A DNA stretch of 44,623 nt, from positions 1-44,623 of the IMG/VR virus record IMGVR_UViG_3300046096_000239. The stretch is one strand, 5' to 3'. The DNA comes from a virus. A program made the position numbers and the translations under genes. Below the pieces are notes generated by a model. That model was not told where the DNA came from. It did not search any database and saw only the letters and a program-made list of their open reading frames with translations. Below, one piece after another: positions 1-37,567 of the stretch. Numbering within the stretch: position 1 is the first letter of the stretch; each line of letters starts with the position of its first letter.

Positions 1-2371
1 GAGGTACAAATACCTCACGGAACCTAGCAGCTTGTCCCTCTATCTTAGGATGCTTAGGCATTTGTTGAGTATTGGGAGCACTTGAACTAGCTCGGCGTGT
101 ATTGGTAGCGCACTGATTGTGACTGCTGTGGATACGCCCTGTCTTCCAGTGCACAAAATATGGATAAGGTTTGTAATATAGACCTCTACGTGTTTCCACC
201 ATCTTCATCAACTGCAAGGCTTGGAGTACAGGTTTAGTCTCGTCTGTAGCGTCCATCGCAAAGGCATAGCTGAAAGCCAGTGCATTAGCTTGAGGGTTAC
301 CTTGCCGAATGCCTGCCTTACGCATGACCGGTGTAGGTTTGTTATACACTCTGATAGGCAAGCCCATAGTCGTGTACATCAGATCACACATCTGCTTAGG
401 GCTACCTGTATTGAAGATAGGCTTAGCAGTCCACTTGCTGCGTACAAAATCTGTAAGACCCTGCCAATCGCTATTGACCAAAAAGTCAGCCATGTTCAAG
501 CCACCTTGCTCTGCCATAGCCGCAGCGATGCGGTCAATCTTGCGTACTGCCGTGTCAAGCTCCTTGCCATAGACGATCTGGAAGGATTCTTTTAACTGTG
601 CTGGTGTAGACTCTATGCTGTAAGTTGGGGCCACAGTACCTGACCAACCTTTAGTCACAAGGTAGGCTTCAAGAATTTTCTCTGCGTCGTTGAACGTCTG
701 ATCGTCTATAGCCTCAAGCTCTTTAGACTTGGCTACGTCACACTTAGTACCGTGGATGAAGCTTTGTGTGTGCAGATACATAGCATCAATCTCTACGTCT
801 AAGTAGACCTGCCATGTATGCTCCAACCCCATGAACAGCTTGAAGAAGTTATGCAACGATGCAGTAACGATAGTATCGTCGCATCCGTAGTCCTTGACAT
901 GAGCACCAGTCAGCTCATTCATCTTGTACTGCACACCATCTATGCTCGTGACTGCTTTGTAGTCTACTTGGTCGTAGTTAAACCACTTCTTGGATAGCTT
1001 CTTCAGACCTAGGCTGTCGTTCTCGTCTACATAAGACGCCTCTAGCTTAGTGTCGAGACAGTTAGGTAGTAGGCCTTCATAACCGTTAGCTTTCCAGACT
1101 ATGTCCTCTGAAGCCCATTCGCTATACAGGACTGTTCCTTCGAATGAATAATTCTGTATTATCAGTTGGACACCTGCATCGCAGATATTTTTGATGTAGT
1201 CTTTGAGAACATCGCTAGGTACGTTAACAGTATCTTTATGGTCTACAGGTATGTAGACTGTATGCTGCAGGTTCTCACCGTAAGTCAGTGACATACCTGT
1301 CAGCTTAGAGCCGATAACATCTACACCTGCGTTATCCTCCTTGCCTTGAGCAGCAAGCCAGTCATCTGACTCGTCTGGTGTGGAAGTCTCTATATCAAGT
1401 GCTACGTATTCGGAATAACACAGGTCTTTAAAAGCGTTTTTGGTCCAGCTTTCCCACTTGTCGAGTGTGATTAGTCTTGCAGTGCATGACCACTGCACCA
1501 GTCTCTCATCAGTGACCTCACCCCTGATAAGCCCCGGCTGGAACTTAAGAGGATGGTGCAAAGTGTTAACCCACTCAGGATACACCTTAGCCAGCGCATA
1601 AGATTGTAAAAATTGCTCACGGCCTTCGTATATCTTTAAAGCCATCTTGTTGTCTAGGTCATCTAGCAGACCATCTAGTGACCCTGTCTTAGCCATACGA
1701 TCCAGCTCTGCCAGACCATCTACACCAAACTCATCAAAAAATGCTTTCCATGCCACCTCGCCAAAGCCCTTGATGCCTGTGATAGAGTCTGAGGAATCCC
1801 CCACAAGTGCCTTGTACACCGTGACAAACTGCATGGGGAAATCACCATACTTGTTCTCACCGAGAACACCGTTGACAAGCACAGTGATCTTAGCCCCGTA
1901 TTTGTTAGTGCCATTTAGCACTGTCATGTCACCATCGTTAGTAGAGATGAACAGGTCTTCCTCACTATTGAGAGCAAGGTAACCTAGTGTATCATCACCT
2001 TCAGCCTTATCCTGTGTAACTGCACAAGCTCCTAGCTTACCGAAAACATCTTTCAGCATGTCTCCCAAAATCTGAAACTCTGCGTAAGCCTCTAGTGGGC
2101 GATTGCCACGCCTAGCTTTATAGGTGTTAGCAATAGCAAGCCTTGGAGCTTTGCTGTCGATACCCTCAAAGACCATGATCATGTTACGGGGAACAAGGCC
2201 ACAGTTCTTGAGTGTAGCTACTATGTGATTGACTGCATTTTCATAACCGTAGGCTGCGGTATTAACTGGCATAATCCTGCCATTGTGCTCTACCCTCTTA
2301 GCTTCTACATCTTTACCTGCAGAAAGGCATGTCCATATAACTGAGGACATATCAAATGCAATTCTTGTCAT
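1..2371 (-). CDS. polA: DNA polymerase I (family A) with 5' nuclease and 3'-5' exonuclease domains, partial
   Basis: A family A DNA polymerase with the full Pol I layout, cut by the left window edge: 790 codons are visible and most of the polymerase core lies outside. Residues 1 to about 290 form a 5' nuclease (FEN) domain, seen as FDMSS at 6-10, EGDDTLG near 122, a following NDGDM, and GDSSDSITGIKGFGE near 191. From about residue 320 a 3'-5' exonuclease begins with DIETSTPD. RRASSSAPNTQQM near 765 matches the family A polymerase stretch that precedes the catalytic motif. The ATG at 2371 has AAGGAT upstream. It should copy phage DNA together with the neighbouring SSB, primase-helicase and ligase; the 5' nuclease could remove primers and the exonuclease could proofread. 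T7-type phage polymerases lack the 5' nuclease domain. The catalytic polymerase aspartates cannot be checked here. Confidence 0.93.
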   Translation of the reverse strand, partial: MTRIAFDMSSVIWTCLSAGKDVEAKRVEHNGRIMPVNTAAYGYENAVNHIVATLKNCGLVPRNMIMVFEGIDSKAPRLAIANTYKARRGNRPLEAYAEFQILGDMLKDVFGKLGACAVTQDKAEGDDTLGYLALNSEEDLFISTNDGDMTVLNGTNKYGAKITVLVNGVLGENKYGDFPMQFVTVYKALVGDSSDSITGIKGFGEVAWKAFFDEFGVDGLAELDRMAKTGSLDGLLDDLDNKMALKIYEGREQFLQSYALAKVYPEWVNTLHHPLKFQPGLIRGEVTDERLVQWSCTARLITLDKWESWTKNAFKDLCYSEYVALDIETSTPDESDDWLAAQGKEDNAGVDVIGSKLTGMSLTYGENLQHTVYIPVDHKDTVNVPSDVLKDYIKNICDAGVQLIIQNYSFEGTVLYSEWASEDIVWKANGYEGLLPNCLDTKLEASYVDENDSLGLKKLSKKWFNYDQVDYKAVTSIDGVQYKMNELTGAHVKDYGCDDTIVTASLHNFFKLFMGLEHTWQVYLDVEIDAMYLHTQSFIHGTKCDVAKSKELEAIDDQTFNDAEKILEAYLVTKGWSGTVAPTYSIESTPAQLKESFQIVYGKELDTAVRKIDRIAAAMAEQGGLNMADFLVNSDWQGLTDFVRSKWTAKPIFNTGSPKQMCDLMYTTMGLPIRVYNKPTPVMRKAGIRQGNPQANALAFSYAFAMDATDETKPVLQALQLMKMVETRRGLYYKPYPYFVHWKTGRIHSSHNQCATNTRRASSSAPNTQQMPKHPKIEGQAARFREVFVP

Positions 2372-5495: not shown

Positions 5496-5526
5496 ATTCT
5501 GCCAGACTTTTCAAATCTGGCAGAAT
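5496..5526 (-). terminator. Strong hairpin after the primase-helicase gene
   Basis: ATTCTGCCAGA and TCTGGCAGAAT form a perfect 11-bp stem, which extends to 14 bp on the minus strand if a G-U pair is allowed. It starts at the primase-helicase stop codon. There is no U tract, so it may be a weak terminator or an RNA-processing or stability hairpin between this gene and the SSB gene. Confidence 0.5.
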
Positions 5527-8396
5527 TATTTTGTAAAAAAGGCGTAAATACCTTTCCGTTGCATATCCTCGTAGTCAAAGACAAGTGTTTCTTGGGCAGT
5601 ATGCTTAGTCCCTGTGCCAGTCTTAATGAAAACTGGGCAGTTCTTAACTGACTGTACGAAACTCTCAGCACTCATATACAGGGCCACTGTATTTATAGCT
5701 CTGCAATGTATGCGGTACTTATTGTAAGCTGTACGAGCTACAATATTGATAGTTGCTTTACCTCCTATGTTACTAACCTCATAATCATAACCTTGATTAA
5801 GTTTAGCCTGATTCATTTCAGGGAACCTAGACATATCCGAGAACATATCCAAGACCTTGATGTACTCAGGCATTGAGTTATCAATAACGTTAGCCAGTTC
5901 TTCGTAGTGTGCGGCCTGTAGCGGGTCTAGCATAGCTGCTAACTCTTCTAACCTGTTAGGGAAGAAGAGTTCAAGGTGCTTCCTGAACATTTTCAGGCCA
6001 AACTCAGCTACGGCATAGTTGAAACAAACACGCTCATTCATGTTAGCTTTCAACTTAATCATTTCAGCCCCGATAACCTCTATGTCATCCTCTGGCTGTG
6101 GCATGTACTTCAACAGGGCTGCTTCATGTAGAGGCTCAAACTCTTCTTTGAGTCTCTCTACAGAATAGCTCTCAATGATTACACCTGCCATGTGTGCGCC
6201 GAAGATGCCTAACAGGTTCTCATCTTTCTTCAGCCGCTTCCATGCTGAAAGTGACTGCGCTGTAAGTCTACCAGCTTGACGCTTGAGAATGATAAGCACA
6301 CTTCTATGCAAGATCGCTGACTCAGACTCTGCTGCTTCCCCCATATAGCATACAGGTGCTGTCAGTTCAATATAGCTGAGAGCCTTGTAACTACTAGAAA
6401 CCCTGTTACCGCCACCTCTAGAAACAGCAGTACCGTTGTAGCAAGTCCTAAAAGCGTCACGCAAACCCTCTAGTAGTTCTTGGTTCATAACGCTAGGCTT
6501 GTACTCGTCAAGCACTACAGGAATAGAGGCACTTGCTCCCATAATCTTGTGAATAGAGAACAAAGAACTCTTAGCTGTAAATGACTGACTCTTCTCAGCC
6601 TTGTAGGAGAAGCGCATCAAGGCTTCCATCATCTGCGTCTTGCCTGTACCTGCTGGCCCTGCAATGTGCATCAATGGAAACTGCTTGTAGGCTTCTCTGA
6701 ATAGCTGGGTGAAGAAACATGATACAGTCCAACCAATCATGTTAGCTAAGCTGGTAGGTTGCTGGCACCCTAGCAATCCAGATATAACCCCGAAGAACTT
6801 ATCTGCATTATCTGGATGCTCACCCACAAATTCAGGCCATGACGGATTATTGACCAGATCAGTCTTCAGTAGTGGGGGACCATCTTCAGGAGCAAGCTCC
6901 ATCCTTAACCCCTTGTCTCTCAAAGACTGAGGTATCCTGACCTCTCTACCATCTGCCCACACCAAGAATGGTGTCCTAGCTTCTACTATTGGGCACATAG
7001 GCATACGCACCAGATCAAGCCCTTCCGACGTAGTGGCGTAAGATACTGTACCGTTAGACTTAGTCTCTTTTAACATATGCGTATAGATATACCTTGCGTG
7101 AATATCTGTTCCAGTAAATGAAGCTCCCTTACTTGCTATAGCCTTATGAAGACCGCTATTGGTAGTAAACGCATCACGCTCTACCTTGACGTTAGTAAAT
7201 ACTTTACCACCAGTTACAAACGTGGCGTTAATCAAAGAAATACTATCGTCGTTCATGTCCAGTAACGTAGCTACGTCTTTGAACTTGCCATCCATTATAT
7301 GCCTATCACCCTGCTCTGTAGCAGCAAAGTAATTATTACCCCTGATGAAGATGCCAGTATTGTCCTCTGTTATGTCCTCACCACTGTCATCTTCGTCTTC
7401 ATTGCCAAACTCGTCGCGCTCTTGCAACATACTGGAGATTGGACCAATAGCATACTCGTAACCTGTACCTTCTTCAAGGTAGCAGTACATCCTGCGTAAT
7501 TCTAGCTCACGCTTGGAGCTATTGTTATATCTGTAGCCATCGCCGTTGTGCTTGGCTAGAAGGCCCTTGCACTTCTCTATGAAGTCATCCTCAAGTAGTT
7601 TAGCTTCGTGTGCATATAGGGCTAACTGTATCGCTATCTTATTAAAACCTATGCCATCTTTAACACTTTCGCCATCCATCAAACGCTGTACTATGGGTGC
7701 ATGTTGACGCAGCGTTGCGGCACTCACAGGCTTGGTACGAACCTTTTTAAGGGCTTGAATCTTCTGGAGAATACCCACGTAGAGGATTGACAGCGCAGGC
7801 CGAAATACGGGCGTTTTGGGGGTCAGGGGCCGAGGGATTTTGCAGATTTCTTGGTAGGAATCGGCGGTCAGATTCTCCAGTTCCTCAGTAGTGATCTGCA
7901 CCTTGTAGTTCTGGTTATCACGCACGTTATAGTGTGTGCGTAACATCCTGCCTCTACGCGCAGAATATACACTGAAGTCTAGTGTATCAACAGCCAAGTT
8001 AAAAGCTATCTCTTTGTAGATAGCTGGCAACTTATTTACTGCTGCTACCTTCTCCATGAACACCACTGGCGGTATCAGGATATGCAGACCCTTCTTGCCT
8101 GACAGATAGATTTCAACGTCCTGGTCTGACAGACCATAGCCCTTCAGCTTGCCCCACAATGTCTGAGCGCCATCTATAGCTGGGCCTACATCATTCGCGT
8201 CATCCAAGTCAAAGTACATTGGCCCAAGATACTTGGCACTTTCTACCATAGTCTTGGGGCTGTCCTTGGCTATGAGCGTGTCACAGCCTAACACAGTAAT
8301 GAAGGTAGGCTTTAGCTCGTCGAAGTTAGCATCTTCGCGGCACACTACCCAATTCTCAGTTCCACCTACTAACTGGTAGGATCTATATAAGGTCAT
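5526..8396 (-). CDS. Primase-helicase: AEP-type primase fused to a P-loop helicase
   Basis: A 956-residue replication protein. The N-terminal third is an archaeo-eukaryotic (AEP) primase: FDLDD at 62-66 supplies metal ligands, SGKKGLH at 99-105 is the sxH motif, and a later DFSVYSARRGRM segment supplies the third acidic residue. The C-terminal part is a helicase ATPase with Walker A GPAGTGKT near 580 and Walker B-like VVLDEYKP near 628, followed by an arginine-containing CYNGTAVSRGGG segment. It should unwind the fork and lay primers for the polymerase. I chose the ATG at 8396 because GGAG lies 8 bases upstream and it overlaps the preceding gene by 14 bases. A longer reading from 8459 would lie deep inside that gene. 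The acidic linker near residues 325-345 separates the two halves. Confidence 0.88.
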   Translation of the reverse strand: MTLYRSYQLVGGTENWVVCREDANFDELKPTFITVLGCDTLIAKDSPKTMVESAKYLGPMYFDLDDANDVGPAIDGAQTLWGKLKGYGLSDQDVEIYLSGKKGLHILIPPVVFMEKVAAVNKLPAIYKEIAFNLAVDTLDFSVYSARRGRMLRTHYNVRDNQNYKVQITTEELENLTADSYQEICKIPRPLTPKTPVFRPALSILYVGILQKIQALKKVRTKPVSAATLRQHAPIVQRLMDGESVKDGIGFNKIAIQLALYAHEAKLLEDDFIEKCKGLLAKHNGDGYRYNNSSKRELELRRMYCYLEEGTGYEYAIGPISSMLQERDEFGNEDEDDSGEDITEDNTGIFIRGNNYFAATEQGDRHIMDGKFKDVATLLDMNDDSISLINATFVTGGKVFTNVKVERDAFTTNSGLHKAIASKGASFTGTDIHARYIYTHMLKETKSNGTVSYATTSEGLDLVRMPMCPIVEARTPFLVWADGREVRIPQSLRDKGLRMELAPEDGPPLLKTDLVNNPSWPEFVGEHPDNADKFFGVISGLLGCQQPTSLANMIGWTVSCFFTQLFREAYKQFPLMHIAGPAGTGKTQMMEALMRFSYKAEKSQSFTAKSSLFSIHKIMGASASIPVVLDEYKPSVMNQELLEGLRDAFRTCYNGTAVSRGGGNRVSSSYKALSYIELTAPVCYMGEAAESESAILHRSVLIILKRQAGRLTAQSLSAWKRLKKDENLLGIFGAHMAGVIIESYSVERLKEEFEPLHEAALLKYMPQPEDDIEVIGAEMIKLKANMNERVCFNYAVAEFGLKMFRKHLELFFPNRLEELAAMLDPLQAAHYEELANVIDNSMPEYIKVLDMFSDMSRFPEMNQAKLNQGYDYEVSNIGGKATINIVARTAYNKYRIHCRAINTVALYMSAESFVQSVKNCPVFIKTGTGTKHTAQETLVFDYEDMQRKGIYAFFTK

Positions 8397-8868
8397 GAGC
8401 AATCTCCGCATCGAACATAGCTTGTTCGAGTATATAGAAAGTGCCTTCGTTTTTAACAACGTAGGCGCTATGGCTAGTTCTATATAGCATGGAGAATCTT
8501 ATGTTGTAGACACCTTTATGTGGCTGATAGCGCACATCGCTGTGAAAGGTGTGCCACATGAATACAGATGGATAAACCTCTGTAGGTACGGATGATAGAT
8601 TGTGAACCCTATCTGAGTGGCTGCTTCTCCACACGGAGGCCATACCACCTGAGTTCTTCATGCTCACATCAGAGCATGTTATGGTGTCTACTATGACAGG
8701 CTTGCCAGCTACAAACTTGAAGACAATCATCTTCTTGTTCACAAAGCCCATGAATCTGTGGGCTGACCTGCAACCTTCCCATCTTTCTAAAGTCTCCGGG
8801 TCTAGCCTCCAAAGCATACCAGCAAGTAGTTGCTTTTCAGCATCTATAGAATCTATAGCTCTAGCCAT
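8383..8868 (-). CDS. Hypothetical protein upstream of the primase-helicase
   Basis: A 161-residue protein I do not recognise. It is soluble, with a predicted helical start (IDAEKQLLAGMLWRLD) followed by a strand-rich body containing many aromatic and His residues (SVFMWHTFHSDVRYQPHKG). No catalytic motif stands out. The ATG follows AAGGTGTTAT. Its end overlaps the primase-helicase start by 14 bases, so the two are probably made in proportion and it may be a replisome accessory factor (context inference only). Confidence 0.75.
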   Translation of the reverse strand: MARAIDSIDAEKQLLAGMLWRLDPETLERWEGCRSAHRFMGFVNKKMIVFKFVAGKPVIVDTITCSDVSMKNSGGMASVWRSSHSDRVHNLSSVPTEVYPSVFMWHTFHSDVRYQPHKGVYNIRFSMLYRTSHSAYVVKNEGTFYILEQAMFDAEIAHDLI

Positions 8869-28123: not shown

Positions 28124-28198
28124 TGGTGGGACGTATAGGACTTGAACCTATACAATACAAATTATGAGTTTGTGGCACTACCTTTATGCTAACGTCCC
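28124..28198 (-). tRNA. tRNA-Met (CAT)
   Basis: The acceptor arms GGGACGT and ACGTCCC pair fully. The anticodon stem ACAAA/TTTGT encloses CTCATAA, giving anticodon CAT. The T arm is ATAGG-TTCAAGT-CCTAT. Discriminator A and an encoded CCA follow. The D arm is short. The anticodon CAT can be Met, or Ile if lysidine is added; which applies cannot be told from the sequence alone. Confidence 0.93.
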
Positions 28199-28205
28199 GT
28201 GTAAT

Positions 28206-28412
28206 TTAAGCCTGCCAAATAACCTTGACATTGTTACAAGCAGGACTGCGCTCATACTTGAACTGATCTTCGTGCGGGTAAACAATAGCATATGTCAAGC
28301 CGCCGTCGAACATATTTTCATATGTCACGATTTTAGAGCAACGAGGGTCTGTCTCGTAAACTCCATCGTTAGCTATGATCTCTTCTGCTACTTTCTTGGC
28401 GATACTGCCCAT
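28206..28412 (-). CDS. Small phage protein between the two tRNAs
   Basis: A 68-residue protein. GSIAKKVAEEIIANDGVYET, then GGLTYAIVYPHEDQFKYERS, is a phage-type small protein I have seen without a function. The ATG at 28412 has AGGAGAGCCATC upstream, which rules out the longer start at 28460. It lies between tRNA-Arg and tRNA-Met, 7 bases from the latter. Confidence 0.7.
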   Translation of the reverse strand: MGSIAKKVAEEIIANDGVYETDPRCSKIVTYENMFDGGLTYAIVYPHEDQFKYERSPACNNVKVIWQA

Positions 28413-28434
28413 GATGGCTCTCCTATTAAAATGG

Positions 28435-28511
28435 TGGTATGCGGTGCGGGGTTTGAACACGCGACCTAAAGTTTAGAAAACTTTTGCTCTATCCAGCTGA
28501 GCTAACCGCAT
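28435..28511 (-). tRNA. tRNA-Arg (TCT)
   Basis: Acceptor arms ATGCGGT and ACCGCAT pair fully. The D arm is GCTCAGCTGGATAGAGC. The anticodon stem AAAGT/ACTTT holds TTTCTAA, giving anticodon TCT for AGA/AGG. The T arm is GCGTG-TTCAAAC-CCCGC, with one mismatch (T against C) in its stem. CCA is encoded after discriminator A. AGA codons are frequent in the phage genes, so it may supplement a host-rare tRNA. Confidence 0.92.
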
Positions 28512-29125: not shown

Positions 29126-29409
29126 ACTGTGAACTCTTCGGGTACGGTAAACCCTGCTTCTTTTAACAATTCAATAGCAGGCTTGGGAAGATTGTAGATA
29201 CCATCGTAGTCTTCAAGCGTGTTGTTTATGATGGTTAGGCCTATGTTTGTCACATAGTCTGCTGTGAGTATCACCCACTCTATGAAGTGCTCTCCCGAAT
29301 GTCGGTAGAGTTCCATAGTAGATTTATGCACACCAAGTGGTGCATTCTGCACATCTATAGAGTAGATGCGTCCTTCAAGTGCTTTTGACGCTAGTAGAGT
29401 CAGTGGCAT
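29122..29409 (-). CDS. Hypothetical protein
   Basis: A 95-residue protein with a beta-rich N-terminal half (LEGRIYSIDVQNAPLGVHKS) and a helical C-terminal half (YNLPKPAIELLKEAGFTVPE). The ATG at 29409 has GAAAGG 8 bases upstream; a TTG 15 bases earlier is less likely. No family recognised. Confidence 0.65.
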   Translation of the reverse strand: MPLTLLASKALEGRIYSIDVQNAPLGVHKSTMELYRHSGEHFIEWVILTADYVTNIGLTIINNTLEDYDGIYNLPKPAIELLKEAGFTVPEEFTV

Positions 29410-29558: not shown

Positions 29559-30482
29559 TCAGCCTTTACGGCGCTTCAGGGCTTCGTCTTCAGCGGCCCA
29601 CTCTGCCTTTTGCTTAGCTAGGATAGCTTGTGCTTCTACGGCTTTGCGTTTAGCTGAAGCATTAGCCAGAAATGTCCCATCCTCCCAGGATCTCTGATGG
29701 GCTGGTATGGCCGCTATGCGCTGGCACTCAAGGAGTTCTTGGTCTGGTGAGGCTTCTGGTGAGGCTTCTAGTGAGGCTTCTGGTGAGGCTTCTACAGGTT
29801 TAGACGCTGGCTTTGGTGCAAGTGCTTTAGCTACAGGTTCGGCCTTGGCTTTAGGTGGTTGGTCTAATGGCCATGTCTTTGTATCTTTCCAGTACAGGTA
29901 AGCATACTGTATGCCGTCTTCCTCTACCCACTTAGTTTGGGAACCTTGGTGAACCGTAGCGTAAACTTTAGGAGGCTCATGCACAAGTGTCTTCCATAGT
30001 GCAGTGGCCTCTTCCTGCTCTTGCTCAGTAAGTTCTGGGTCTTGGTCTGGGAAGGCGAAGTAGTCCACGTACTTAGCGGGTACTTTCGCATGGGCTACAT
30101 ATCCAAGGTCGGGCTCTGGAGTACCTGTGACTTTAGGCACTAGAGGGGAGAGTACCCGTTCACTCTTCATTTCGTAGAGCATGGCATTCTCTGGCAGGGC
30201 TTCGCCTTGCAAGTAGATTTCCATATGGCTACCGTGGTATGCAACGACTACCCCTTGCTCAAACAACTGGTGCAGGAGAGAAGACCGTCTTGTAGGCAAG
30301 GTGCAGCTAGGGCACTTTACCTTGTCCTGTTTGAGGTTAGAAGTCCACGTATGCTTTAGAGTACCGCAAGCAAGGCATTTAAGTATTATGCGTTGGTTAG
30401 AGGTGCCTGCATAGGAGGACTTGTCAAGTACGTGCCAACCATTCAAGGTGGAACCGATTATGTAGTTGGATTTTCTGCCCAT
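29559..30482 (-). CDS. Zinc-ribbon protein with PEAS repeats
   Basis: A 307-residue protein. The N-terminal IIGSTLNGWHVLDKSS, CLACG and KVKCPSC segments form a zinc ribbon of a type often found next to homing nucleases and DNA-binding proteins. The middle is alpha/beta with Tyr/Trp-rich patches. Residues about 215-250 hold Pro/Ala/Ser-rich linkers with PEASLEASPEASPD repeats. The end is a Lys/Glu/Ala-rich helix. The ATG has only a weak ribosome site. A DNA- or RNA-binding role is inferred from the zinc ribbon. Confidence 0.6.
   Translation of the reverse strand: MGRKSNYIIGSTLNGWHVLDKSSYAGTSNQRIILKCLACGTLKHTWTSNLKQDKVKCPSCTLPTRRSSLLHQLFEQGVVVAYHGSHMEIYLQGEALPENAMLYEMKSERVLSPLVPKVTGTPEPDLGYVAHAKVPAKYVDYFAFPDQDPELTEQEQEEATALWKTLVHEPPKVYATVHQGSQTKWVEEDGIQYAYLYWKDTKTWPLDQPPKAKAEPVAKALAPKPASKPVEASPEASLEASPEASPDQELLECQRIAAIPAHQRSWEDGTFLANASAKRKAVEAQAILAKQKAEWAAEDEALKRRKG
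29749..29796 (-). repeat. Tandem 12-bp repeats coding PEAS units
   Basis: Four copies of a GAGGCTTCTGGT-like unit (one copy with AGT in place of GGT) code the Pro-Glu-Ala-Ser repeats of the zinc-ribbon protein. Confidence 0.75.
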
Positions 30483-32861: not shown

Positions 32862-32893
32862 AATCTACCTTTCAAGATAGGCAACATCGCCTA

Positions 32894-32917
32894 GATAGCG
32901 CTGTAAGCAGCGCTATC
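32894..32917. repeat. 10-bp stem-loop
   Basis: GATAGCGCTG and CAGCGCTATC pair perfectly around a TAAG loop, 33 bases upstream of the 115-residue gene. It could be a leader hairpin. It has no U tract on either side. Confidence 0.7.
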
Positions 32918-32967
32918 GAAGTTGTCGCAGACAATGGGCAACTACATAGCCCTTGATACGCACGTTT

Positions 32968-33027
32968 GAACCTTCTAGATGTAGCAGTACATTGCTATTC
33001 GCTTTGTAGATTTATTCTAGAAGGTTC
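32968..33027. repeat. 12-bp inverted repeat with 36-base spacer
   Basis: GAACCTTCTAGA and TCTAGAAGGTTC are perfect complements. The spacing allows an RNA stem or two operator half-sites. No associated protein is evident. Confidence 0.7.
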
Positions 33028-33569
33028 CTGCTGTGTCAGGTTCCCTATCATTCCTCGCGCCAAAGGTGGGCGCTTTTCGGGGTGCTAACCCCTTACCTTA
33101 ATTGCATTATTAGTTCACCATACCATGCTGCTCACTCATAACTTATTCCCTGTTACGGGTTCTATGCTGTGACACTGGTTTCAGAACTAGTCCAGTCTAT
33201 TGCGCTAGCTGAGACTGAAGCCTACAACCGTAGTTGTATATCGTAAGGTTAACGACTAAGAACATTCTGTAATCTATCTAGGGTAAGTAGGATTTGCTAT
33301 TCTGTTTATCAGTACGTTGGCATTAAAGTTTAACAACGAAGAACGCACGTTATTGTCTCTCCGGCTCTGTCAGAGTTATTTATACAAACTATCTCTAACG
33401 CATTGGAGGGTTTTGTGTGAGTCGCACCGTACTATTTATGCATACTACAATTTTCAGGATTACATGGTGTAATTCGACAATGCAGCGGCGCACCTACTAT
33501 TCTAAGTGGTTTGCATTGTCTGTCTTTAGTATCAAGTGGCCTATCATGCGCCATGTTGCGATGCTTGTC

Positions 33570-33629
33570 AGACTATAAACCCGTTGCCGGTGTTGATTCG
33601 TTAGACTGTAAACCCGTTGCCGGTGTTGA
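33570..33629 (+). repeat. Pair of 27-bp direct repeats
   Basis: AGACTATAAACCCGTTGCCG continuing GTGTTGA occurs at 33570-33596 and again at 33603-33629 with one mismatch, at a 33-bp period. TGCGCCATGT motifs flank the pair on both sides (near 33547 and 33635). This resembles a minimal iteron array; two copies are too few to be sure. Confidence 0.6.
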
Positions 33630-33754
33630 CACACTGCGCCATGTATGCGCTATTCACCCGGACATGTTGCCGGGTTTCTAAGGGCGTGTTTATCCCCTAG
33701 TGTTACCACTCAATTGTTAATGATCCGCACAACTTTGGTGCAATGTAGGGACGA

Positions 33755-33807
33755 TGCCTACACGATAGCGTTAACGCTATCGTGTAGGCACTGGCATAGT
33801 GCCAGTG
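33755..33807. repeat. Perfect 36-bp palindrome plus a second tandem hairpin
   Basis: The palindrome at 33755-33790 (core TAGCGTTAACGCTA, arms TGCCTACACGA...) is perfect with no central spacer. CACTGGCA-TAG-TGCCAGTG at 33789-33807 follows at once, overlapping it by two bases. In RNA these make two strong hairpins just beyond the 184-residue gene stop. There is no U tract, so they may be stabilising hairpins, a weak terminator or a protein-binding palindrome. Confidence 0.75.
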
Positions 33808-33816
33808 CCTGGCTAC

Positions 33817-34371
33817 TTACTCGCTTGTCACAGTATCGACGCTTGTCACCATGTCATCACTTGTCAACCCTGCGTCAGTCAGTGCGGCTACTTGTGCGGA
33901 CATTTGTGCCGCGTCATACTCTGCCCTCATGTCTGAGACGTGGTTAATTAGCGCAGTCACTCGCTTTGCCACAGCAGATCGCGCTACTAGTGTCTTGTCG
34001 CTGGGTGTCTTCTTGTCATAGGCACCACGTGCCCATGCGGCGACATCGCCGCGATACGCATAGAACCCAGTATGCCCCATGGGGCAAGCTGGGAGAGCAT
34101 CAGTGTCGGCTAGTTGGCCGGTTATGGCTCTCACCGCTTTGGCGAAGTTACTTACATTCTTGCACTCTGAAGAAACGAAACCTGCACACAGCTTGTCAAA
34201 GCCTTGTGACGCCATTGCTGCAGCCGCTAGTGTGCGGGTTGCACCTTTGCCCACACTGGCAACCACTGCTAAAGTGTCGCTATCCATTGAACCCACTAAA
34301 TCAAGTGCGCGGATCTGGGATTTTGACAGAATGGCATTTACGCCAGTAGCGACCAAAGAAAATGTTGTCAT
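33817..34371 (-). CDS. First leftward gene, Ala-rich hypothetical protein
   Basis: A 184-residue soluble protein, Ala/Ser/Val/Thr-rich: VATGVNAILSKSQIRALDLV, then GATRTLAAAAMASQGFDKLC, a middle FAKAVRAITGQLAD and a C-terminal helix. It has no membrane or catalytic motif and I do not recognise it. The ATG at 34371 has AGG 10 bases upstream; a GTG 12 bases earlier is less likely. As the promoter-proximal gene beside the origin-like region it could be expressed first after infection (inference). Its GC content is higher than that of the adjacent non-coding DNA. Confidence 0.7.
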   Translation of the reverse strand: MTTFSLVATGVNAILSKSQIRALDLVGSMDSDTLAVVASVGKGATRTLAAAAMASQGFDKLCAGFVSSECKNVSNFAKAVRAITGQLADTDALPACPMGHTGFYAYRGDVAAWARGAYDKKTPSDKTLVARSAVAKRVTALINHVSDMRAEYDAAQMSAQVAALTDAGLTSDDMVTSVDTVTSE

Positions 34372-34545
34372 GATATTTAACACCTATAAAAGAACCCTAG
34401 TGTAGCGGGTAGCTATCGGCAACCACTTTAGTTACCTAGGGTTGCTGTAATCAGCTAACCCATGCCATTAATGTACAGTGATTTTTGAGTGTGTGCCAAA
34501 TATATTTTTGTGTGTGTGCTTTATGCCACATCACATTATGACCTA

Positions 34546-34935
34546 GTGCGCACTGCGCACACTGCGCACAATTAACACACTTCACAATATATCCCTTATA
34601 CATAATTGTAATATACCAGACTGTGGATACTGTGGATAAGTTCTGGGGATATAGCTGTGGATAACATGTTGTTATGATGCAACAGCCGCTAACCCTGTGA
34701 ATAACATATTTTGATGGTAAGGTGGCTTGAGTATGCTTTGAACGATCCTAGAGCATCCTAAAGGCTCATCATTGTATTTAACTATGGCAGTGTGCTGGTA
34801 TGATAGTAAAATACTAATGGACAAATAAGTTATCCACAGCTTGTGCACATGGTTGTCCACAGCCTGTGCATAACTCAGTGATTGTGCATAGGTTATCCAC
34901 AAGTGACGTATGGCCTGTGGATAACCTGTGGACGA
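34546..34935. other. Candidate replication origin: seven DnaA boxes beside AT-rich DNA
   Basis: Exact TTATNCACA boxes lie at 34631, 34656, 34696, 34865 and 34916 (minus strand) and 34830 and 34893 (plus strand). Five are TTATCCACA. Near matches are at 34622, 34853, 34883 and 34927. About 0.01 exact boxes would be expected by chance in 300 bp. The AT-rich stretch at about 34585-34620 adjoins the cluster, as an unwinding element does in bacterial oriC, and three TGCGCAC copies (34547, 34554, 34563) lie further left. No phage initiator is visible, so host DnaA is the likely binder (inference). Confidence 0.75.
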
Positions 34936-35003
34936 TGCTGCGCCTCTACCTACCCAAGAAACGCGCCAAAATTTTCCATATAAATTTCTCATACTTCGCA
35001 CAT

Positions 35004-35045
35004 TTTGGCACGTTTCCGGGGTGTTAAACCCGGAAACGTGCCAAA
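35004..35045. repeat. Perfect 17-bp inverted repeat
   Basis: TTTGGCACGTTTCCGGG and CCCGGAAACGTGCCAAA are perfect complements with an 8-base spacer GTGTTAAA. A degraded copy (GAAACGCGCCAAAA) occurs at about 34970. It could be an operator, a termination or attenuation hairpin, or an origin-flanking structure. No U tract follows on either strand. Confidence 0.75.
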
Positions 35046-35117
35046 CCTCACAGACCGACACCTCGTTCACCCACCCCACAACCATAAAAATAAAAATTTT
35101 TTCTAATACAAAGAAGC

Positions 35118-35142
35118 ATTTGGCAATACACCACTGCCAAAT
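35118..35142 (+). promoter_or_regulatory. Operator-like palindrome over a possible late promoter
   Basis: ATTTGGCA and TGCCAAAT form a perfect 8-bp inverted repeat with a 9-base spacer, 20 bases before the ATG of the HTH gene. TTGGCA (35120-35125) is close to a -35 box; TACCAT, 16 bases later, is a poor -10. The half-site TTTGGCA is shared with the larger inverted repeat at 35004-35045. The adjacent HTH protein is the obvious candidate to bind it. Confidence 0.45.
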
Positions 35143-35161
35143 ACCATGTTAGACTAGGAAT

Positions 35162-35536
35162 ATGCATACACTAAATACTCACGGTTATCCAGCAGAATGG
35201 CCGCAGCCTACTGATCGCATAACCTCTACTGTATCTCGCATCACTCACGCGCAGAAGAAAGCCTTGTATGAGCGGACTGTCACTACTAGATCGCTAGCTA
35301 AGCTTTTAGGTGTAGCAGAATCACATCTATCATACTTATTTCCGGGTAAGGTGCCAGCACGTAAACGAGTTAAGAGTTCATTGAGTACAGTCAGGAAAGA
35401 GTTTCGCATAGTATGCGCCAAACGAGTCCTAGCCAGTGAGATTTCAGTCACCGAAGCCGCCTCTATAGCACGAATCAGTTACAGAAGTATGGCTAGAGCA
35501 GTGCAAATACTGCGTCAAGAAAGGAAAACACCATGA
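35162..35536 (+). CDS. Helix-turn-helix DNA-binding protein
   Basis: A 124-residue basic protein. SLAKLLGVAESHLSYLFPGK (about residues 44-63) is a clear helix-turn-helix; a second helical unit (VTEAASIARISYRSMARAVQ) follows near 99-118. The TSTVSRITHAQKKALYE stretch is basic. It could be a late regulator binding the palindromes just upstream, or a DNA-recognition protein of the terminase, which follows with a 4-base overlap. AGGAAT precedes the ATG. It is the first gene of the rightward operon. Confidence 0.75.
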   Translation: MHTLNTHGYPAEWPQPTDRITSTVSRITHAQKKALYERTVTTRSLAKLLGVAESHLSYLFPGKVPARKRVKSSLSTVRKEFRIVCAKRVLASEISVTEAASIARISYRSMARAVQILRQERKTP

Positions 35537-35919
35537 AACCAGAGTTCAACATGGAAGATTTCCCTGTCCTAAAAGGCAAAGCTGATGAAAATGACACGTA
35601 CAAACCCGACTTTGTACCTCTTACAGCCACCGGATTAAACCTTGAAACAGAGCTATTAGAACAGTACAACCGTGCTAGACGAGTCCTCCATGATGCTGAA
35701 TATGACAGTGATGTACCTCTTTCGCAGAAAGCAGCAGCATTAAACTCAGCAACGACTATCATCGGAGCCTTGATCAAGTCGCAGGCCGAACTCTATAGCC
35801 TTGAAAGAGTGAAGAAAATAGAGAATGCGCTGATTACGACCTTGAAGAAGTACCCAGAACTACAAGAATCGTTTATGCAAGAGTACACCACAAACCTTGG
35901 AAGTAGCGATGATACGTGA
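35533..35919 (+). CDS. terS: Terminase small subunit-like protein
   Basis: A 128-residue acidic-helical protein. DVPLSQKAAALNSATTIIGA, then KSQAELYSLERVKKIENALI and KYPELQESFMQEY, matches the helical C-terminal part of small terminase subunits of many tailed phages (from memory). It would bind the packaging start site and recruit the large subunit. AGGAAAACACC precedes the ATG, and its end overlaps the large subunit gene by 11 bases. Confidence 0.7.
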   Translation: MKPEFNMEDFPVLKGKADENDTYKPDFVPLTATGLNLETELLEQYNRARRVLHDAEYDSDVPLSQKAAALNSATTIIGALIKSQAELYSLERVKKIENALITTLKKYPELQESFMQEYTTNLGSSDDT

Positions 35920-37567
35920 GCACCTAGCTAGGGTTAAGAACGCTATAGAGAATGTGTACTCTATGGGTAATTTGTCAAAGTGGATCACAGCTAACACTAC
36001 ATACGAGGGTAAGCGATTCTCCTATGCGGGTAGAGAGTACCAACCTACCATCATAGATGACCCTGCCAAAACAGTTTACGTGGTCAAGTGTGCTCAGGTC
36101 GGGCTGTCAGAAATCTTCGCTCGATGGGCGCTTGCCTCTGTTACTTCGCAAGAGAACTTCACTACTATTTATACATTCCCTGCCTCTACAGATGCTGAAT
36201 TGTTTACTAAGTCTAGGTTGACACCTGTTATTGCGGGGTCTAAGTCGATTACGCATTCACTTAGCAGGCTTGTAAACAGTACAGAGTTGAAGCAGTTTGG
36301 ATCTAACAGCTTCCTGTATATTCGCGGTACATATTCAGAAACTGGAGCCTTGTCAGTGCCTGCAGACTTGATTATACATGATGAGTATGATCGGTCAGAT
36401 ATGAACAACGTAGCTGCTTATGTGTCTCGCTTACAGGCTAAGCCTACTAAAATGCGCCGTGTGTTTAGCACACCTACGGTTGCTAAGTATGGGATAGATA
36501 GAGAAGCAAATGCTTCTAGACGAAAGAAGCAGATGTGGACTTGCAGTCATTGCAGACACAAATTCTTACCAAATTATCACGATAACGTGATTATACCTGA
36601 CTTTACAGGCCGTAAACAGGACTTGAATAAGCTGAATATCGTTAATACACGCTGGGCAGAGGCTAAATTATTGTGCCCTAGATGCGGTAAAGTGCCTGAT
36701 AACGGGCTTGAGTACCGCGAATGGGTGATCGAAAATTCAGATGCTAAGTTCGATGCGGTCAGTTATTTCGTGTCACCCTTCTGTGCACCGGGCTTTATCA
36801 CTGCTTCCTACCTTGTCAAGGTATCTACTGAGTTTGAAAAGTGGTCGGAGTTTTGCAATCAGGCCCTTGGAGAGACTTCTGAAGATGCACAAGATAGCTT
36901 GGTAGAGTCAGACATTACCGCTATGCACACCCCGAACACTATGAAGGCTTCAGGTATTCACTTCATGGGTTGTGACATGGGCGCTACTTGTCATATCATG
37001 ATAGGCAAGAAGTTTGAGGGTAAGTTGATAGTAGTGCATCGTGAGAAAGTGTACTTTACGGAGTTTGAGCAGCGTAGAAGAGAGCTTTGCTCTGAGTATT
37101 CAGTGCTAACATCGGTGCATGACTTGTATCCGTACACCGATATTATAGCTAGAGTTACTGCATTCGATCCTAATGCGTTTGGTGCTACTTATGTTTACAG
37201 AAAGACTACAGAGTCGCACTACGTTAAAGAGCAACAGGAAGACCCAGAAGAGGGTAAGGTGAATGTACGATCTGCTATGATTAACAGAGACATTGCATTC
37301 GATGAGTTAATGGCTGAAATTAAAGGTCGCATGATTGTCATCCAGAACTTAGATGACGAAACGGTGCAACACTTCCTAGACATGAAGCGCATACAAAAGT
37401 TTGACAAGTCTAATGTTATGCGATATGTGTGGGAGAAGACAGCAGGGATTGACCATTGGCATCATACGCTGCTATACCTGTACATTGCATCTAAGCTACA
37501 AGGCACAGCAGGTGCATGGACACCAGCAGGGGCTGTGCCATTCGTATCTGCATTCTTGGTAAGATAG
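35909..37567 (+). CDS. terL: Terminase large subunit (GpA-type)
   Basis: A 552-residue packaging ATPase-nuclease. KCAQVGLSE (residues 60-68) is a deviant Walker A of the kind found in GpA-like terminases. LIIHDEYDRS (about 155-164) is Walker B. A Zn-ribbon-like CSHC ... CPRCGK segment lies near 215-260. The nuclease part starts at FMGCDMGATCHIM near 355 with its Asp. It cuts concatemers and drives DNA into the prohead through the portal. GGAAG precedes the ATG at 35909; a TTG 12 bases upstream is unlikely. The portal gene follows after a 92-base gap. Confidence 0.85.
   Translation: MIREHLARVKNAIENVYSMGNLSKWITANTTYEGKRFSYAGREYQPTIIDDPAKTVYVVKCAQVGLSEIFARWALASVTSQENFTTIYTFPASTDAELFTKSRLTPVIAGSKSITHSLSRLVNSTELKQFGSNSFLYIRGTYSETGALSVPADLIIHDEYDRSDMNNVAAYVSRLQAKPTKMRRVFSTPTVAKYGIDREANASRRKKQMWTCSHCRHKFLPNYHDNVIIPDFTGRKQDLNKLNIVNTRWAEAKLLCPRCGKVPDNGLEYREWVIENSDAKFDAVSYFVSPFCAPGFITASYLVKVSTEFEKWSEFCNQALGETSEDAQDSLVESDITAMHTPNTMKASGIHFMGCDMGATCHIMIGKKFEGKLIVVHREKVYFTEFEQRRRELCSEYSVLTSVHDLYPYTDIIARVTAFDPNAFGATYVYRKTTESHYVKEQQEDPEEGKVNVRSAMINRDIAFDELMAEIKGRMIVIQNLDDETVQHFLDMKRIQKFDKSNVMRYVWEKTAGIDHWHHTLLYLYIASKLQGTAGAWTPAGAVPFVSAFLVR

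Follow-up and report, generated by a model that had tools for sequence, protein, structure and literature searches.

A conserved DnaA-box cluster between the divergent gene arms of an uncultured tailed phage, a candidate replication origin opened by host DnaA

Genes around the DnaA-box cluster

The DNA analysed here (hereafter the window) is the entire IMG/VR record IMGVR_UViG_3300046096_000239, 44,623 bp in length, and is probably a piece of a tailed-phage genome of ~83 kb. We found a cluster of DnaA boxes in a 778-bp gap (34384–35161), the second-longest in the window, which extends from the last leftward ORF to the first rightward ORF and separates a leftward replication arm from a rightward arm. 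We propose this intergenic region as the origin region of the phage. The leftward arm carries PolA, primase-helicase, SNF2 helicase, SSB and ligase genes, bearing out the claim of an earlier sequence-only reading that the phage has its own replisome. The primase-helicase (5526–8459, minus strand) combines a primase of family phrog_16345 with a P-loop AAA region. The gene at 2–2371 (minus strand), open at the contig start, encodes the N-terminal part of a 5'-3' exonuclease–DNA polymerase A fusion, whose homologue in the related contig G006 has 1067 aa. No family was found for the first ORF of the leftward arm (33817–34383, minus strand, 188 aa). The rightward arm begins with an HTH-like gene, a small gene and the large terminase gene. 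The first of these (35162–35536, plus strand) encodes a putative DNA-binding protein, predicted to be all-helical with two HTH-like units and weakly matching a phage repressor family; a fold search with its model gave no significant match. The terminase large subunit (35897–37567, plus strand) is of the GpA type. An ORF overlapping the cluster (34672–35085, minus strand) was rejected as a gene, its frame being broken in the relative L004 by indels beside a conserved block. The longest gap without a called ORF in the window, 955 bp (32862–33816), also belongs to the leftward arm, where it borders the gene at 33817–34383 on the left. The same arm contains tRNA-Met(CAT) and tRNA-Arg(TCT) genes within 28124–28511; G006 has one tRNA-Met.

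The boxes and their flanking DNA

The seven exact TTATNCACA boxes and four near matches claimed by the sequence-only reading were all found, spanning 34622–34924. The exact boxes lie at 34631(−), 34656(−), 34696(−), 34830(+), 34865(−), 34893(+) and 34916(−), and the one-mismatch boxes at 34622(−), 34841(+), 34853(+) and 34883(−). From left to right, the array consists of an abutting minus-strand pair, GTATCCACA/TTATCCACA (34622–34639), the second box being exact; two minus-strand boxes, TTATCCACA (34656–34664) and TTATTCACA (34696–34704); three plus-strand boxes with 11–12 bp spacing, TTATCCACA, TTGTGCACA and TTGTCCACA (34830–34861); the minus-strand box TTATGCACA (34865–34873) and near box CTATGCACA (34883–34891); and two copies of TTATCCACA, on the plus strand (34893–34901) and the minus strand (34916–34924). 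A weaker box-like TTATACATA is found at 34596(+). Outside the cluster, the whole 44.6 kb contains one exact box, at 29324.

This clustering is beyond chance. Shuffled sequences gave 2.29 exact boxes per window, or ~0.015 per 294 bp, so the previously claimed expectation of ~0.01 copies is right. The densest 294 bp held at most two exact boxes in 1200 Markov simulations of the whole window, and the whole gap held at most three boxes in 10,000 simulations using its own composition.

The AT-rich flanks and the TGCGCAC repeats that had been described are also real, the latter at about 34547–34570. Computed duplex stability is low at 34570–34630 (top 0.1% of the window over 60 bp) and, on the terminase side, at 35080–35120 (top 0.11% over 40 bp). 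The former stretch, a candidate unwinding element, touches the leftmost box pair (34622–34639). Thus, by computed stability, the cluster adjoins DNA of the kind expected of an unwinding element. The pattern of box, spacer and trio published for bacterial unwinding elements is weakly represented: one match at 34622 has a spacer of 8 nt and four (.A.) units, and other boxes in the region show comparable ones, such matches being frequent by chance here.

Conservation of the cluster in relatives

Conservation of the boxes in related phages had been proposed as a check on their significance. The cluster was found at the same place in L004 and G006, and was absent from ten distant named phages (25–30% terminase identity), which have scattered boxes at most. 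L003, a near-identical contig from a second metagenome, represents the same phage, and its gap is identical at 778 of 778 positions. The terminase of L004 is 86% identical in protein, and DNA identity averages about 75% over the adjacent 4 kb (47–86% in 90-bp windows). The L004 contig begins inside the cluster, and the comparison therefore covers the right part, an 89-bp non-coding block (34843–34931) that is 100% identical. This is the best conserved stretch of the 4.2 kb, top among all windows compared; at 75% identity, the chance of 89 successive matches is about 8e-12. L004 carries one additional exact box. These comparisons suggest that the cluster is under strong constraint; recent exchange of the segment is an alternative to selection for L004.

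In G006 (76%), the cluster occupies the same gap with two exact and three near boxes, including an abutting pair GTATTCACA/TTATCCACA at 200–217 of the same kind as the pair at 34622–34639. In more divergent relatives, the boxes lie in an intergenic region beyond the terminase, not before it: in L007 (55%) there are seven exact boxes, all in a single orientation, and in L153 (57%) two exact boxes and one near box. L005 and L006 (61%) have no boxes in the 425 bp covered. Since boxes occur in L004, G006, L007 and L153 and are not clustered in the ten distant phages, the cluster is a feature of this lineage and not of its wider kin. The most widely shared 10-mers among the gaps of these lineages are the boxes themselves. 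A nucleotide search with the region against phages and plasmids found no homologue, and searches for further relatives through the primase, the HTH protein, the small terminase-like protein and TGACGTATGGC added little. Close relatives were found among neither plasmids nor bacterial genomes, a terminase search of the latter returning distant matches only. Repeated GATAGC motifs occur between the seven boxes of L007 (8640–8860).

The G006 map and GC skew

The G006 contig (82,971 bp) provides an 83-kb map. Both of its ends consist of one 7-bp tandem repeat, and it is therefore probably a circular map opened in the gap. The arms diverge from the cluster and converge at about 40 kb, and the minimum of the detrended GC skew falls at 1.6 kb, near the cluster, with its maximum at 40.2 kb of 83 kb. 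This pattern fits two forks leaving the cluster. However, the skew goes with the orientation of the genes: it is weak or reversed at third codon positions, and the one long counter-oriented gene shows the skew of its own strand. Because replication and transcription are inseparable here, the skew is not independent evidence. The tandem repeat, ACACCAG, forms an array of at least 19 copies that adjoins the G006 box cluster and makes up both ends (L134:1–137 and the end of L138). At the corresponding position, L005 carries a tandem repeat of another kind, which contains GCTATC/ATAGC units.

Box arrays in an unrelated phage group

We searched viral contigs for three same-strand TTATCCACA boxes in a short span, with the strand fixed and spacings of 9–39 bp allowed. 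At least 120 contigs matched. Among 50 stronger cluster-bearing records, many of them short fragments, none encodes DnaA domain IV and 11 carry PolA. Much of the set is one uncultured phage group with a different terminase, a PolA of ~550 aa and a primase (L013, L015, L040, L041, L043, L077, L089, L091 and about 30 more loci), for which the phage collection contains no close isolate. The cluster lies 81–528 bp upstream of the small terminase gene (terS) in all 35 loci showing terS, and mostly between divergent genes where both flanks are visible. Selection of the loci for having clusters does not account for this position. Adjacent same-strand boxes are spaced 11–12 bp apart, about one helical turn, in 296 of 536 cases; this preference is not built in, because the search pattern permitted 9–39 bp.

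Replication genes and the search for an initiator

Searches of the window and of G006, which looks complete at 83 kb, detected no DnaA domain and no Rep_3, ParA or tyrosine integrase, while P1 was positive for the last three under identical searches. The phage–plasmid lifestyle suggested by the sequence-only reading is therefore not supported. PF00308 had no match. PF08299 had only a weak, sub-threshold match to DnaA domain IV, at 29924–30046, which was discarded, as it is out of frame with the local ORF and contains a stop. Family scans of 53 G006 proteins and 51 window proteins returned replication enzymes and no known initiator among the matches listed. The primase-helicase, with its P-loop AAA region, could itself be the initiator, and this is the main gap in the argument for host DnaA.

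Initiation by host DnaA and alternative explanations

We consider it probable, from these comparisons of sequence, that the region is the main replication origin of the phage, marked and opened by host DnaA. Among the three roles offered previously (initiation by host DnaA, titration of DnaA and a phage–plasmid lifestyle), initiation is the best supported, because conserved boxes lie at the divergence of the arms beside unstable DNA, the phage has its own replisome in which no initiator was found, and an unrelated group shows a similar arrangement. The part observed is the match of the sites to the 9-bp consensus; host DnaA would bind the array. A DnaA oligomer might then grow from the abutting pair at 34622–34639 into the unstable stretch at 34570–34620 and open the strands. 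The phage primase-helicase, SSB and PolA would take over, with forks moving outward along both divergent arms. If the phage enzymes take over after opening, dependence on the host would be confined to initiation.

Titration, promoter control and a T5-like entry or packaging signal each agree with some of the observations. The same boxes might instead serve as a sink, titrating host DnaA as phage copies rise and thereby halting host initiation and freeing precursors, in which case they would not be the phage origin. The datA locus of E. coli is a described example of a titration locus (PMC4451416). Many consensus boxes in one place are the make-up of such loci too, and titration requires no initiator, which suits a phage in which none was detected. 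A sink could sit anywhere, yet the boxes cluster at the arm divergence here and beside terS in 35 of 35 unrelated loci. In addition, the cluster adjoins unstable DNA, and the two exact boxes left in G006 are few for a sink, which makes titration unlikely. It is quite improbable that the cluster is a transcription switch, in which DnaA would repress or activate divergent promoters in the gap, so that the timing of early versus late genes would follow the growth state of the host. DnaA is known to act as a transcription factor, and the cluster is suitably positioned between divergent arms. The lambda phage has DnaA-box-like sites downstream of the pO promoter that are DnaA-protected in vitro (PMC3985674). 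However, a promoter scan of the gap found four promoter-like sites against 3.0 expected, which is chance level, and the clustered boxes would seem to outnumber the needs of one promoter.

The proximity of the clusters to terminase genes raises the further idea of a genome-end signal, either an injection stop signal like that of T5 or a packaging site near terS, containing DnaA-box-like repeats. The T5 signal has been described with repeats, palindromes and DnaA boxes (PMC13250531), and holds one exact and four near boxes in about 130 bp; it offers a published precedent for such boxes in a virulent phage. The density of exact boxes is far higher here, and the clusters of L007 and L153 lie beyond terL instead of upstream of terS; we regard such a signal as very unlikely. 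We give slightly less credence still to the boxes being iterons that equal the DnaA consensus by accident and serve a phage protein, either the primase-helicase or the HTH protein encoded at 35162. In other phages and plasmids, primase-helicase fusions of the P4 alpha type are able to recognise their own origins, and the HTH-like gene adjoins the cluster. Against this, the sites fit the DnaA consensus exactly, including its free fifth base (C, T or G), and the same 9-mer is used in unrelated phages whose proteins differ.

Comparison with known systems

Several known systems come close to this region. Bacterial oriC regions (such as those of E. coli and B. subtilis) likewise have an array of consensus boxes, some with 9–12 bp spacing, beside AT-rich unstable intergenic DNA; the present array differs from them in being phage-borne and in having no dnaA gene, a weak DnaA-trio match and a single GATC. 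P1 oriR and plasmids have DnaA-assisted origins with host DnaA boxes. P1 shares host DnaA boxes in an extrachromosomal origin, but it has Rep_3, ParA and Cre, none of which was found here, and its four exact boxes are scattered, whereas seven lie within 294 bp here. In the lambda ori region, too, DnaA binds DnaA-box-like sites close to the origin in vitro (PMC3985674), but lambda uses O-protein iterons and has no cluster of exact boxes. T5 is a virulent phage that, like this one, has its own replisome and clustered DnaA-box-like sites; its signal, in contrast, has a single exact box, sits in the terminal repeat and has a proposed role in DNA entry. Phage origins predicted by Ori-Finder, such as that of PseuGes_254, combine an AT-rich region with DnaA boxes (PMC11512268). 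That is a single-genome prediction, whereas the cluster described here is constrained and recurrent.

In the open-access literature, we found no comparable phage for which a DnaA-box origin has been demonstrated by experiment. As far as that literature shows, it appears to be new for a phage that has its own polymerase and lacks plasmid genes to carry a constrained DnaA-box array as its apparent origin, and for such an array to recur in an unrelated group. Phages carrying a polymerase are usually pictured with their own origin-opening protein or with transcription-primed origins. We tentatively suggest that unrelated groups of virulent phages might have independently swapped a phage initiator for a host-DnaA-box array between the structural and replication arms, leaving the replisome licensed by the host cell-cycle initiator. 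If true, this would be a split strategy of host licensing and phage elongation and a testable link between the host cell cycle and phage replication, the start of which could become sensitive to host growth state. Box arrays with 11–12 bp spacing just upstream of terS could then provide a sequence signature for origins in uncultured phages.

Other motifs in the gap

The gap contains a non-box motif, TGACGTATGGC (34904–34914, plus strand), which is common to L004, G006 (position 490) and L005 (position 115). It is kept near the cluster in divergent relatives and might be recognised by a protein of the phage. Between the cluster and the rightward genes lies a perfect 17-bp inverted repeat, TTTGGCACGTTTCCGGG, with an 8-nt loop (35004–35045). 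The sequence ATTTTGGCAC of this inverted-repeat region is found again in L004 and G006.
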